From a virus: a stretch of DNA of 21,169 bases. Made by a program: the position numbers and the translations under genes. The notes under the pieces are model-generated. The model was not told the origin of the DNA, made no database searches, and saw only the letters and a list, made by a program, of their open reading frames with translations. Within the stretch, counting starts at the first letter, position 1. Each line of letters begins with the position of its first letter. Positions 12,045 through 16,522 of the stretch are shown in pieces. The stretch is taken from positions 1 through 21,169 of the IMG/VR virus record IMGVR_UViG_3300022198_003735; one strand, written 5' to 3'.

Positions 12045-12204
12045 TTGCGGTGACGGCTATTACATCGAAACCGGAGAAGAACCCGGTATCGGCGAGGTGC
12101 GTTATGCCGCTTGCATGCCGGGTGGCGCTATCTGCCGGTATTCCAATGATTTATGGCAGGCGCAAATTTATATTGAACAGATGAAAGGGAGCCGATGCCA
12201 GTGA
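12001..12204 (+). CDS. Hypothetical protein, 67 aa (GTG start)
   Basis: GTG at 12001, 44 bases inside the preceding gene, with AAGGACG about 9 bases upstream. The product contains CGDGYYIETGEEPGIGEVRY and ends with LWQAQIYIEQMKGSRC. The strand-turn-strand centre and the terminal helix look like a real small domain. Its last 77 bases overlap the opposing HNH gene, marking where the plus-strand cluster meets the minus-strand cluster. Family not recognised. Confidence 0.5.
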   Translation: MDDSQKTAVPSNAIDCGDGYYIETGEEPGIGEVRYAACMPGGAICRYSNDLWQAQIYIEQMKGSRCQ

Positions 12205-12493
12205 TCCACTCGTAAACCTGCTGCGCGCGATGCCAGCACCAAGAGTCTTGGTGCGTCCACCAGTTCCAGAGCGACATGTAGCCTTTCGAGGCATTGCAGG
12301 ACAAACAAGCGGGCACGCAATTTTGAGGAACTGTGAGCCCACCTTTTGATTTTGGTTTGACGTGATCAATCGTTGTAGCGTGTTTGCCGCAGTAGGCGCA
12401 GCGGTGATGCCACGCTTCAAATATTGATGCCCTGAATCGTTGTTTTGTTACTTTCTTGCTAACCAGTTCGACGCCATCGATCTGGTGCTCCAT
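12128..12493 (-). CDS. HNH endonuclease, 121 aa
   Basis: Second small HNH nuclease. The start is ATG 12493 (a TTG at 12499 is possible). Motifs: C32/C35 zinc pair (RCAYCG), TIDH with Asp43 and catalytic His44, KPKSKGG, Asn58, then CLSCN (C63, C66). The end has a WNWW and a W-rich tail like the HNH gene at 1501-1791. It lies downstream of dCTP deaminase on the same strand and its 3' end runs into the plus-strand cluster. It is probably a free-standing, homing-type endonuclease. Confidence 0.9.
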   Translation of the reverse strand: MEHQIDGVELVSKKVTKQRFRASIFEAWHHRCAYCGKHATTIDHVKPKSKGGLTVPQNCVPACLSCNASKGYMSLWNWWTHQDSWCWHRAQQVYEWITGIGSLSSVQYKFAPAINHWNTGR

Positions 12494-12525
12494 AACCAAC
12501 GAGACAAGGCTCGGTTACAGGGTAG

Positions 12526-13151: not shown

Positions 13152-13559
13152 ATGGAAGGCATTGTAGAGCAATGGCGCCCTGTTGTCGGGTACGAGGGGC
13201 TATACGAAGTTTCGGATCAAGGGCAAGTCAGGAGTTTGCCTGGGTGGCGCTGGAATGGGCAAGCAATACATCGATTCAAAGGAAGAGTGCTAAAGCCGCA
13301 GCAGTCACCTCGATACTTTCATGTAGTTTTATCAAAAAATAGTAAAGTTAAATGTGTAAAAGTTCACCAGCTGGTGGCAGATGCCTTTCTGCCGCCATGC
13401 CCTGGCACCCAAGGCAAGCGGTCTGGCTGCTATCACATTGATCACATAAATAACAATCCAATTGACAATAGGGCGGAGAATCTTCAATGGCTTCCTCGCT
13501 ATGAAAACACATATATCAAGGTTTGCCGAAAAAGAGATCAGGCAGGCAGATTTATTTAG
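13152..13559 (+). CDS. NUMOD4 and HNH homing endonuclease, 135 aa
   Basis: Free-standing homing endonuclease. The start is ATG 13152; an upstream TTG at 13110 only adds an atypical leader. An N-terminal NUMOD4 segment (WRPVVGYEGLYEVSDQGQVR, 8-27) binds DNA. A KGRVLKPQ and VHQLVADAFL part leads to the HNH core, HIDHINNNPIDNRAENLQWL (95-114), with His95, Asp97, His98 and Asn110, and Asn119 after it. It cuts double-stranded DNA to promote its own spread. It is the only plus-strand gene in the right half and meets the endolysin gene with 4 bases of tail-to-tail overlap. The stretch around 13330-13350 is AT-rich, which fits recent acquisition. Confidence 0.9.
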   Translation: MEGIVEQWRPVVGYEGLYEVSDQGQVRSLPGWRWNGQAIHRFKGRVLKPQQSPRYFHVVLSKNSKVKCVKVHQLVADAFLPPCPGTQGKRSGCYHIDHINNNPIDNRAENLQWLPRYENTYIKVCRKRDQAGRFI

Positions 13560-14641
13560 CTGTAGTCCCAGCGACGGCGCTGTCCATCTGCACGGCGACC
13601 GAGATGAACAAAATTTGGCGCAGCATAACCAAGAGAAAAGGGCCAGTTTTGATCACACCATTTCTCAACAGCGTGCATATCTGCTCCATTGATCCAAAAA
13701 TCAACAGCGCCAGTTCCAGGGCCGCTAAACAAATGTTCACTGTTCTTTGCACCACCAACTGAGCGATTAACAGCAGGCGGTCTGTAACCACTTGTAACAA
13801 TTACCGGCTTTCCCCCAAAGGCCGTTCGCGCCCGCTCAAGAAATGCCGCCAGTTCAGCCGCAGTATCAACCTGATACTGGTGATCGAACCTGCGCGCTTC
13901 CTGTCCAAGTGCAAATTCGCCTAACGTGATGTGCGGCGTCAGTCGAGCGCTAAACGGGCTGCTTGGTGTCAGCTTGGCAGGATCTTGCTGAACTTCAGGC
14001 TGCTTCGGCAAGCTAGAGCGCCAGAGTTCTCCTTCCGCACGACGACGACGAAGAAGACCAGCCTCCACATTCGTACCCGGATTGCGATACAACTCAAGGG
14101 CTGATGGCACTGCGCTCCAATCGCGTTCGCGCAATCGCTTGCTGATGGTCTCGAAGCCAGCAGTGCCATAGAAGCCAGCCCCTAGGTTATACGCAAACGA
14201 AATAAGCGCAGACTGCTGCCCGTCTGTCATCGCCGACCAATGCGGCACCGTTTCGCTGAGCTTTTTTGCGATTTGATCAATTTCAGTGCGAACAAACATG
14301 TCCGCTTCAATCACGGTGATCTTGTCGCCACGACTGACACGCCGGCCACCTGGGTAGCGAGTGGTGCCGTAACCGATGGTGTAAGGCTCGCCGCCGCTAA
14401 GCGGGTCAGGGTATGCGGTGAGATGGCAGCCTTCAAATTCTTTAATAAGTTTTAGCGCTGACGCATAATCCCCCTGCTTGCCGCCTTGACTCCAGGTCTT
14501 GAACCAACCTTGGTCGCGACCAAGGATGTGCGGATTTGCTTTATTGATCGCGTCCTCAAGCTCAGTCAACGCCGCCATTTGATGCGGCAATGCCTTGTAA
14601 TACTTGAATAAATCAAGAAGGCGGATTTTGTTTTGCGTCAT
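13556..14641 (-). CDS. Bifunctional endolysin: GH24 muramidase plus M15 peptidase
   Basis: 361-aa lysis enzyme. Residues 1-57 are a cyanophage-type N-terminus (RLLDLFKYYKALPHQMAALT, FKTWSQGGK). Next is a GH24 lysozyme domain with the Glu70-Asp79-Thr88 triad (EFEG, AYPDP, YTIGYG), about residues 62-210. After a Pro-rich linker comes an M15 zinc peptidase domain: SGYRPPAVN (284-292), SEH with His303, AVDF with Asp314 and FVHLG with His346 as zinc ligands. It would cut glycan strands and also peptide stems. Such fusion of muramidase and carboxypeptidase is fairly uncommon. The gene follows the holin-like gene and its frameshift extension on the same strand; it ends tail to tail with the homing endonuclease. 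Confidence 0.93.
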   Translation of the reverse strand: MTQNKIRLLDLFKYYKALPHQMAALTELEDAINKANPHILGRDQGWFKTWSQGGKQGDYASALKLIKEFEGCHLTAYPDPLSGGEPYTIGYGTTRYPGGRRVSRGDKITVIEADMFVRTEIDQIAKKLSETVPHWSAMTDGQQSALISFAYNLGAGFYGTAGFETISKRLRERDWSAVPSALELYRNPGTNVEAGLLRRRRAEGELWRSSLPKQPEVQQDPAKLTPSSPFSARLTPHITLGEFALGQEARRFDHQYQVDTAAELAAFLERARTAFGGKPVIVTSGYRPPAVNRSVGGAKNSEHLFSGPGTGAVDFWINGADMHAVEKWCDQNWPFSLGYAAPNFVHLGRRADGQRRRWDYS

Positions 14642-14879
14642 CGCTCCAAGGTGCGTGAATACTTATTGCGCCACCGAGGAGGCGGCTATCACCAGTTTGT
14701 AGTTCAGGATCAACCGGGTGCTCGATGATGACAGGCGGTTCGATCGCAGGTGGTTGCGTTGCGTGCCACTCTGCTTCAGCTTGATCAAGCTTGGCTGGCA
14801 GCGTTAGCTCAAACCACCATTGCCTGATGGCCTGTTCCAGTCGACGCTGCCAGCTTGGCTTGCCAAAGCTGATCAGAGC
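14613..14879 (-). CDS. Possible -1 frameshift extension of the holin-like protein, 88 codons
   Basis: Open frame of 88 codons after the slippery site, reading ALISFGKPSWQRRLEQAIRQ, then a WWFELTLPAKLDQAEAEWH stretch and a Pro/Ile-rich part, to a TGA at 14613-14615. It contains no ATG, GTG or TTG, so it cannot start in the usual way. The amino-acid sequence is strongly protein-like: amphipathic helix, Trp-rich patch, Pro-rich linker. Read in -1 frame after K45 of the 46-aa ORF, it gives a fusion of 133 aa. Its last 29 bases overlap the endolysin start. The alternatives are an indel in the A6 run or start at a CTG near 14876. Confidence 0.65.
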   Translation of the reverse strand, partial: ALISFGKPSWQRRLEQAIRQWWFELTLPAKLDQAEAEWHATQPPAIEPPVIIEHPVDPELQTGDSRLLGGAISIHAPWSDDAKQNPPS

Positions 14880-14885
14880 TTTTTT
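14851..14885 (-). promoter_or_regulatory. Predicted programmed -1 ribosomal frameshift site
   Basis: On the minus strand the codons GGA AAA AAG CTC TGA contain the slippery heptamer A AAA AAG (14885-14879), identical to that of E. coli dnaX and placed in the correct frame. A 7-base spacer (14878-14872) is followed by a stem-loop: CAGCTTTGG (14871-14863) with CCAAGCTG (14858-14851), 8 bp with one bulged T and loop CAAG. The zero-frame stop lies inside the spacer. Slip site, spacing and hairpin all match known -1 frameshift signals. No upstream Shine-Dalgarno-like stimulator is seen at the dnaX distance, though GGG lies next to the slip site. Confidence 0.7.
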
Positions 14886-15013
14886 CCCTTCAGCGCACGC
14901 AGCGCATGGAACACAAGCTGAATAATGCTGTTATCCTTTAGCGGGGAAAGGGCGATCAGCTCAGAAGCTGCTGCTACGAGAATCCAAAAAGCAGGATGCT
15001 GAATAAAGTCCAT
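14873..15013 (-). CDS. Holin-like small membrane protein, 46 aa
   Basis: ATG at 15013, 2 bases after the preceding gene's stop. The product has a short start MDFIQHP, one transmembrane segment (about residues 8-25, AFWILVAAASELIALSPL) and a basic helical end (LRALKGKKL). I recall small proteins of this AFWxLVAAASELIALSPLK type upstream of cyanophage endolysins. The position between the TM/coiled-coil gene and the endolysin fits a holin or antiholin that permeabilises the inner membrane. The stop follows a slippery A AAA AAG, and an alternative longer product is likely. Confidence 0.75.
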   Translation of the reverse strand: MDFIQHPAFWILVAAASELIALSPLKDNSIIQLVFHALRALKGKKL

Positions 15014-15015
15014 AA

Positions 15016-15267
15016 TTAGCAAGAGGGTGGACGCACTTCCAGCTTAGAGACCCTTTGCTCAACGGTATTAAGACGAGAGAAAAATTCTTTTCTATCCTCC
15101 TTAATATCCGAATGCAATACCTCTAATTGTGTTGCAATATGCTCGACGGCGCTTGTAAGTCTGATTACAGCGTCGCGCGCTTCATCTGACTTACGGCTAA
15201 ACCCGGCCGCCCCCATCGCGGCAACCGTAATAGACGCGCCGGCCACTGCGGCAATGACTTCGATCAT
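15016..15267 (-). CDS. TM plus coiled-coil protein, 83 aa (holin or spanin-like)
   Basis: ATG at 15267. An N-terminal transmembrane segment (about residues 3-23, EVIAAVAGASITVAAMGAAGF) is followed by SRKSDEARDAVIRLTSAVEH and a long heptad-type coiled coil (IATQLEVLHSDIKEDRKEFF, then NTVEQRVSKLEV). This resembles small cyanophage lysis-cassette proteins. It could be a holin or an inner-membrane spanin subunit. The gene stands immediately upstream of the holin-like gene and endolysin on the same strand, forming a lysis cassette. Confidence 0.75.
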   Translation of the reverse strand: MIEVIAAVAGASITVAAMGAAGFSRKSDEARDAVIRLTSAVEHIATQLEVLHSDIKEDRKEFFSRLNTVEQRVSKLEVRPPSC

Positions 15268-15935: not shown

Positions 15936-16178
15936 CTACCTATCGCCTTTCTGCAGCTCTTGTACCAAGTACTGCCGCAAAGCTCGATCAGCAGGCGTCT
16001 GCTGCGGTTTCAAATCAATCTCAAGAATGCGCAGCTTAATTTGCCGCGCGTAATACTCATCAAGCTGCTGCTTGACTTCTTGCGCCTTGGCATACCGCGT
16101 CTCGATAGCCACAGTGGCGCCAACGATCACAGACAATGCTGCAACGATGGCGCCAGCAGTAGCAATCCAGCGGTGCAT
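15936..16178 (-). CDS. TM plus coiled-coil protein, 80 aa (spanin or holin-like)
   Basis: The start is ATG 16178 (the frame extends to a TTG at 16187, but the ATG overlaps the previous TAA as TAATG). An N-terminal membrane helix (residues 5-23, IATAGAIVAALSVIVGATVA) precedes ETRYAKAQEVKQQLDEYYAR and a charged helical tail (LKPQQTPADRALRQYLVQEL). The one-helix plus periplasmic coiled-coil form matches inner-membrane spanins and some holins. It lies about 900 bases ahead of the TM/coiled-coil gene at 15016-15267, so two such proteins serve this cluster. Confidence 0.65.
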   Translation of the reverse strand: MHRWIATAGAIVAALSVIVGATVAIETRYAKAQEVKQQLDEYYARQIKLRILEIDLKPQQTPADRALRQYLVQELQKGDR

Positions 16179-16522
16179 TAGCCCCAAGGCACGCCAGCGG
16201 ACTTAGTAGGCGCCAGCTTCTCGCTGATCTGGGCGTCGAGTGCCTGGACGATCTCTTCGACCTTTTCATCGCCGAAGTGCGATTTGACCCAGCCGATCAC
16301 GGTGTCTTCGGTCAGCTCGGCGTAAGGGATGCCAGTTCCCTCTTCTGGGGCTTCAAGGCCGATGGAGCCATAAGCGCCAGCTTGCTCGCCATCGCGGAAG
16401 TGCGTCACGGTGTAATGCACCGTGAAGACCGTTCCGATGTCATCAAGATTTCTTTCCATATTGGCGACCTTCCACACAGTGAAGGGGAAGTCGATTCCAG
16501 GTGCGGGGTTGGTGTCAGGCAT
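16178..16522 (-). CDS. DUF7936-like phage protein, 114 aa
   Basis: Start ATG 16522. The product has the pattern FTVWKVANMERN, then VFTVHYTVTHFRDGEQAGAYG and a helix with ELTEDTVIGWVKSHFGDEKV plus a C-terminal LDAQISEKLAPTKSAGVPWG. I recall this as a small phage family (a DUF7936-like one) found near tail genes. It is probably a structural accessory. The gene at 18488-18820 has the same plan (helix EEQMIGFVEQTLGDELATIQ, then a SLPW end) and seems to be a diverged paralogue. Confidence 0.75.
   Translation of the reverse strand: MPDTNPAPGIDFPFTVWKVANMERNLDDIGTVFTVHYTVTHFRDGEQAGAYGSIGLEAPEEGTGIPYAELTEDTVIGWVKSHFGDEKVEEIVQALDAQISEKLAPTKSAGVPWG

Follow-up and report, generated by a model that had tools for sequence, protein, structure and literature searches.

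The lysis region of the viral record IMGVR_UViG_3300022198_003735 (IMG/VR), whose 21,169 analysed nucleotides are referred to here as the window, contains a gene for a small membrane protein which ends one codon after the run A_AAA_AAG and is followed, in the -1 frame, by a further 88 open codons that run into the endolysin gene. Does this arrangement encode two proteins from a single start codon through programmed -1 ribosomal frameshifting, and, if so, do the two proteins act in lysis? We addressed both questions computationally, by comparing the locus with its relatives among cultured and uncultured phages.

Layout of the lysis region

The genes concerned lie on the minus strand and, in order of transcription, are those of an 83-aa protein, of P1 (the small membrane protein), of P2 (the -1 frame extension) and of the endolysin. 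The features are as follows:

15016..15267, minus strand: 83-aa protein directly upstream of P1, containing a hydrophobic segment at the N-terminus and a coiled coil (phrog_26178, E 3.8e-42)
14873..15013, minus strand: P1, 46-aa holin-like membrane protein, the zero-frame product, phrog_22542 (ORF list and PHROGs profile search)
14879..14885, minus strand: slippery heptamer A_AAA_AAG, read in the P1 frame and separated from the P1 stop by one codon (conservation among homologues)
14776..14872, minus strand: candidate stimulatory RNA, an extended hairpin of ~97 nt (folding against synonymous recodings)
14851..14871, minus strand: local 8-bp hairpin, an alternative fold of the same stretch (pair counts in the class)
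14613..14879, minus strand: P2, the -1 frame extension, 88 codons and a stop (translation, dN/dS, AlphaFold2)
13556..14641, minus strand: endolysin with phage lysozyme and peptidase M15 domains (phrog_28234, E 1.5e-146; PF00959, PF08291)

The junction had been described in an earlier prediction made from this DNA, and its description holds in the window. The 46-aa ORF ends GGA AAA AAG CTC TGA, with the heptamer in frame and correct base for base. The seven bases CTCTGAT come next and then, as predicted, a stem of 8 bp with one bulge and a 4-base loop, CAGCTT(T)GG-CAAG-CCAAGCTG. The -1 frame is open for 88 codons without ATG, GTG or TTG, and its stop at 14615-14613 creates an overlap of 29 bases with the endolysin ORF, which starts at 14641. 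The joint P1-P2 product would comprise 45 + 88 = 133 aa.

Other ORFs of the window deserve mention. A second ORF of 83 aa lies upstream in the same direction (15936-16187, minus strand); its hydrophobic N-terminal segment and the charged helix after it give it a spanin-like anatomy. Two further minus-strand ORFs, at 1501-1791 and 12128-12499, show by eye CxYCG and HNH-nuclease-like motifs.

Conservation of the frame relation and of the heptamer

When viral contigs were searched with P2 and with P1, 150 loci were found; 135 of them contain both parts, and at all 135 the frame of P2 is -1 relative to that of P1. Wider searches yielded 187 distinct P1 homologues; a canonical -1 heptamer is found 0-1 codons ahead of the P1 stop in 164 of them. 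Relatives with a run length that fuses both parts into one frame, which the original prediction had named as the sign of a sequencing error, number 0 among the 135 loci, and there are none among the 164 heptamer-bearing homologues. Across relatives, the P1 stop is retained, and at most one codon separates it from the heptamer. Since no relative fuses the frames and the P1 stop is retained, the short product is presumably needed alongside the long one.

The A6G run itself is conserved in the relatives: A_AAA_AAG occurs in 157 of the 187 homologues, and in some others it is exchanged for different canonical X_XXY_YYZ heptamers, C_CCA_AAG in 6 of the 164 and G_GGA_AAG in 1. Additional C_CCA_AAG and G_GGA_AAG cases were found among loci reached from the P2 side; such loci contain only three consecutive adenines (A3), with the frame relation unchanged. 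At a single locus, L023, the heptamer position reads G_AAA_AAG. The codon before AAA-AAG varies (GGA, GCA, CCA, ACA, GTA, CAA, GAA or TCA) and specifies Gly, Ala, Pro, Thr, Val, Gln, Glu or Ser, and yet its last base is A in 151/151 A_AAA_AAG homologues. Where this codon is four-fold degenerate, its third position is A in 146 of 146 cases; the background in these genes is 22%. Similarly, the last Lys-Lys of P1 is written AAA-AAG in 157 of the 158 loci with P2, while elsewhere in P1 AAG is used 168 times and AAA 49 times. Conservation of the heptamer is far beyond chance.

P1 homologues without P2 provide natural negative controls, and they have no heptamer. Firstly, the Oinezvirus S37C6 group encodes an identical KPKK peptide, its Lys-Lys written as AAG AAA or AAG AAG. 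Secondly, at two loci (L240 and L241) P1 ends CCA CGC AAA TGA and runs straight into the endolysin. Thirdly, the heptamer is missing from the P60, S-CBP and S-CBS4 phages.

Carriers of P1/P2 include cultured cyanosiphoviruses and cyanopodoviruses; those in the named-phage collection are S-CBS3, S-CBS1, KBS-S-2A and S-EIV1, together with the T7-like S-B28, WH11-B and 7B11-B. A joined P1-P2 gene is annotated in none of the cultured members. For S-CBS3, S-CBS1 and S-EIV1, what is annotated of P2 is a short ORF that begins at an internal start, and P1 is not annotated in the S-EIV1 and S-B28 records. A frameshift gene would correct GenBank GU936715, HM480106, KJ410740 and MK016662, where internal P2 starts are given or P1 is omitted. 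As a separate observation, a P1/P2 cassette with A_AAA_AAG occurs in contig L337, which was assigned to a Hyphomonadaceae MAG and is probably a mis-binned cyanophage contig.

These data bear on two explanations that require no ribosomal frameshift. The six-A run is a classic error site, but the idea that a wrong homopolymer length, introduced in sequencing or assembly, conceals one continuous frame is refuted by the equal frame relation at every locus, by the agreement of the independently sequenced S-CBS1, S-CBS3, KBS-S-2A, S-EIV1, S-B28, WH11-B and 7B11-B, and by the same relation at the C_CCA_AAG and G_GGA_AAG loci with A3 only. Transcriptional slippage on A6 would produce mixed mRNAs, and the commonest form of the heptamer does offer the homopolymer. 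However, the architecture is kept at C_CCA_AAG and G_GGA_AAG loci, which have no long homopolymer, and one locus has G_AAA_AAG, so that this explanation retains a next to negligible likelihood.

A_AAA_AAG is the shift site of dnaX (PMC5009743), and the signal had been predicted to be of the dnaX type. The likeness extends to the heptamer; it does not extend to the Shine-Dalgarno-like element that a dnaX-type signal has about 10 nt upstream, as GGAG, GAGG, AGGA and AGGG are absent from positions -18 to -6 relative to the heptamer in 163 of 164 homologues.

Selection and start codons in the P2 frame

Sequence pairs that differ at 3-25% of sites give a median dN/dS of 0.16 for the P2 frame; the values for the other two reading frames of this DNA are 1.18 and 2.02. 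The P2 frame, predicted to encode a genuine domain, is thus under strong purifying selection.

A constrained P2 could in principle be translated independently, by reinitiation after the P1 stop. The P2 frame of some relatives does contain GTG or TTG, and rarely ATG, and the starts given in GenBank for S-CBS3, S-CBS1 and S-EIV1 lie within P2. Against this, the window's P2 has none of the three start codons, and the relatives largely lack an ATG of their own for the second part: it is missing from the junction region of the P2 frame in 134 of 158 sequences, and 84 of the 158 have none of ATG, GTG and TTG in the stretch that begins at the preceding -1 stop and extends 20 codons beyond the slip. 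Reinitiation, moreover, would require neither the heptamer nor the invariant A in front of it nor the swaps for other canonical heptamers. We consider reinitiation very unlikely. Thus, the agreement of independent isolates, the missing starts and the A3-only heptamers contradict sequencing error, reinitiation and transcriptional slippage.

Structure of the downstream RNA

Downstream of the heptamer, a hairpin other than the predicted one is the better candidate for a stimulator. In the window, positions +5 to +113 fold as one long hairpin of ~97 nt, with a first pair at +7 (6 nt past the slip site) and a stability of -54.8 kcal/mol (z -3.7 against synonymous, peptide-keeping recodings). Within the window's class (37 sequences), 97% of members fold with a span >70 nt and the median start lies 7 nt past the heptamer. 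The mean z of this class is -2.9, versus -0.9 in control windows of the downstream endolysin gene, while that of the other P2 classes, at -1.7 to -1.9, partly overlaps controls (-1.2 to +0.2), all these z-values coming from related and hence not independent sequences. In a consensus structure of the long hairpin, 90% of cells are paired (36 sequences).

The short local stem was rejected as the conserved stimulator: only 6 of the 32 members of the class (19%) form all 8 of its 8 pairs, where the peptide alone would give 12%, and with a z of 2.9 it is weaker than the long stem. Neither in the long hairpin nor in the local stem was compensatory covariation seen beyond that of shuffles, and the argument for structure is therefore one of stability. 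The long-range fold is the better supported explanation of this stretch, and a long hairpin is likely present in the window's class.

A model for the production of P1 and P1-P2

Together, the conserved heptamer, the frame relation, the selection on P2, the retention of the P1 stop and, in part, the long RNA hairpin argue that programmed -1 ribosomal frameshifting very probably yields a short P1 and a long P1-P2 from one start codon. Comparison of the relatives therefore favours what had been predicted, i.e. a short membrane protein and an extended form of 133 aa. The majority of ribosomes would stop at the P1 stop and release the 46-aa membrane protein. A fraction would pause on A_AAA_AAG, AAA occupying the P site and AAG the A site, facing the long RNA hairpin; both lysine tRNAs would then slip one base back, and 88 more codons would be read in the -1 frame. 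The resulting 133-aa form would consist of P1 and a soluble, conserved C-terminal domain, P2. P1-P2 might be a minor form in the membrane oligomer of P1, where it could set timing or provide a link to another partner via its C-terminal motif.

The P2 domain and its stand-alone relatives

P2 is predicted to form a long helix, a Pro-rich linker and two short strands, and it ends in a conserved C-terminal motif, LQTG[DE]SRLLGGxMxI[HK]xPW. The AlphaFold2 model (pLDDT 80, pTM 0.37) places a helix at residues 9-40 and strands at 50-53 and 72-75. No match to P2 was found in Pfam or the PDB, PHROGs gave weak matches with no assigned function, and a fold search returned as similar only cyanophage proteins, including an S-PM2 protein without known function.

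The C-terminal motif is also present in stand-alone proteins of cyanomyoviruses, namely the T4-GC 410 proteins of P-HM1, P-SSM4 and S-SSM7, as well as in g111 of S-CRM01 and in three further contigs, L080-L082. The T4-GC 410 proteins and those of L080-L082 have their own amphipathic helix of the WLKK type. Since cyanomyoviruses encode P2-like domains as separate proteins with a start codon of their own, P2 is not necessarily a lysis factor. It looks like a membrane-associated cyanophage module, which in some lineages would be joined to P1 by frameshifting.

The positions of these stand-alone genes may be of use to others. For P-HM1, P-SSM4, S-SSM7, S-CRM01 g111 and S-CBP3_0014 the motif lies in L331:1267-1665, L332:1273-1809, L334:1267-1653, L333:1279-1644 and L335:1537-1764. 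The P2-like protein at L081:4950-5216 (also in L080 and L082) starts at an ATG of its own, has an amphipathic helix at its N-terminus and is encoded near replication genes, with no P1 alongside.

P1 and the lysis cassette

P1 belongs to phrog_22542 (E 2.3e-30), a family whose function is not assigned. Its single clear hydrophobic segment spans residues 9-25 (~17 residues, mean Kyte-Doolittle 1.81) and is accompanied by an amphipathic second helix; AlphaFold2 gives a two-helix model with a pLDDT of 80. Searches for holin families in Pfam and PHROGs gave no match to P1 (none at all in Pfam, and in PHROGs matches without known function), and the fold search matched only a near relative.

Genomic context points to lysis. 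An endolysin of the window's type lies directly downstream of P2 at 137 of 153 loci, and a homologue of the 83-aa gene directly upstream of P1 at 104 of 152. The 83-aa protein shows a weak match to the hemolysin family phrog_937 (E 0.0023) and is a probable partner in the lysis cassette. P1 homologues without P2 in the P60/S-CBP phages adjoin lysozyme genes as well. In the T7-like members, P1/P2 sits between tail and terminase genes, ahead of the small terminase gene and with no endolysin after it, a position which in T7 is that of the holin gene 17.5 and which would suggest a lysis setting there too. We are thus inclined, with some reservation, to regard P1 as the lysis cassette's holin or as a subunit of that holin, and the short and extended forms could be read as holin and antiholin.

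A different function would leave the frameshift untouched: the P2 module may use P1 as a membrane anchor in host-envelope remodelling, virion assembly or some other late function, outside any holin system. The cyanomyovirus proteins that carry the P2 motif away from lysis genes with an amphipathic helix of their own are compatible with such a role, as are the location of the T7-like members between tail and terminase genes and a P1-like peptide in a Microviridae genome. The endolysin that so regularly follows P2, the lysozyme genes beside P1 in phages without P2 and the correspondence with gene 17.5 argue against it, and we regard it as possible but rather unlikely. An identity with the tail assembly chaperones G/GT was considered and rejected, as the locus stands directly before the endolysin and not between the major tail protein and tape measure genes.

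A timing role for P1-P2 can be put forward only tentatively. More speculative still is the proposal that several cyanophage families control lysis through the ratio of P1 to P1-P2, in which case the slip rate at AAA-AAG, which depends on ribosome speed and on how the lysine tRNA of the host is faring, might act as a built-in clock or sensor and set the time of the burst.

Comparison with known systems

A close mechanistic parallel is dnaX (tau/gamma) of Escherichia coli, with which P1-P2 shares the zero-frame A_AAA_AAG and a short spacer, followed by a downstream hairpin that for P1-P2 is a candidate. In dnaX, however, the shifted product is the short one, whereas in P1-P2 it would be the extended one; in addition, P1-P2 has no Shine-Dalgarno-like element upstream, and its candidate hairpin is ~97 nt long and lies within coding sequence. 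Phage lambda G/GT and its relatives produce, as P1-P2 would, short and C-terminally extended forms via -1 slippage at interchangeable heptamers, and in the tail chaperones of phiCbK-like phages the heptamers AAAAAAC and GGGAAAC are interchangeable (PMC3556154). P1-P2 differs from G/GT in its lysis cassette rather than pre-tape-measure location, in its protein family and in having a membrane protein as the N-terminal part.

Holin/antiholin pairs, in which a small lysis membrane protein is made in two forms from a single gene, are known from lambda (S105/S107, dual start) and from SPP1, where gp24.1 and gp26 have dual starts (PMC6316719). There, a second start codon changes the N-terminus by a few residues, whereas P1 and P1-P2 would differ by a C-terminal domain of 88 residues through a frameshift. 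PBSX XhlA/XhlB and SPP1 gp24.1/gp26 are two-component holins (PMC6316719) and, like P1 and the 83-aa protein, combine a small one-segment protein with a second small membrane protein beside the endolysin. P1 is not detectably related to XhlB, though, the 83-aa protein carries its hydrophobic segment at the N-terminus and XhlA at the C-terminus, and the PBSX and SPP1 systems involve no frameshift.

Recoding of lysis genes has been discussed before. For the L gene of MS2, a frameshift was proposed (Kastelein 1982, as cited in PMC5009743), and a 1987 paper, going by its entry in the reference list of PMC5009743, explains the activation of L by termination at the coat gene. A frameshift is also reported to have been proposed for a lactococcal phage lysin made from two overlapping genes (Shearman 1994, as cited in PMC10885494). 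P1-P2 differs from both, as MS2 is an RNA phage and the lactococcal case concerns an endolysin, not a holin-like protein. In the open-access reviews and papers that we searched, including PMC5009743 and PMC10885494, we found no frameshift or conserved heptamer in a holin-like gene of dsDNA phages or cyanophages. The mechanism is thus known, also from phage tail genes, while for a lysis gene of the P1 type we found no description.

If our reading is correct, a group of aquatic phages makes a putative holin in two forms by recoding. To our knowledge, recoding in dsDNA phages has so far been tied mainly to tail and capsid genes. Frameshifting would also explain why annotation pipelines missed or truncated the gene in cultured phages, and it would offer a handle on the timing of cyanophage lysis, with a bearing on carbon turnover in water. 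KBS-S-2A, WH11-B and 7B11-B carry P1/P2 and grow on Synechococcus WH7803, a ready test bed, and the three natural heptamers, with matched relatives that have P1 only, provide comparative data on the rules that govern -1 slippage in bacteria.

Finally, the P1-like peptide of the Microviridae is encoded by an unannotated 46-aa ORF of genome MH572431 (L157:2846-2983; 48% over 44 aa, E 4e-3). This ORF, which comes without heptamer or extension, may encode a small lysis or membrane protein of microviruses.
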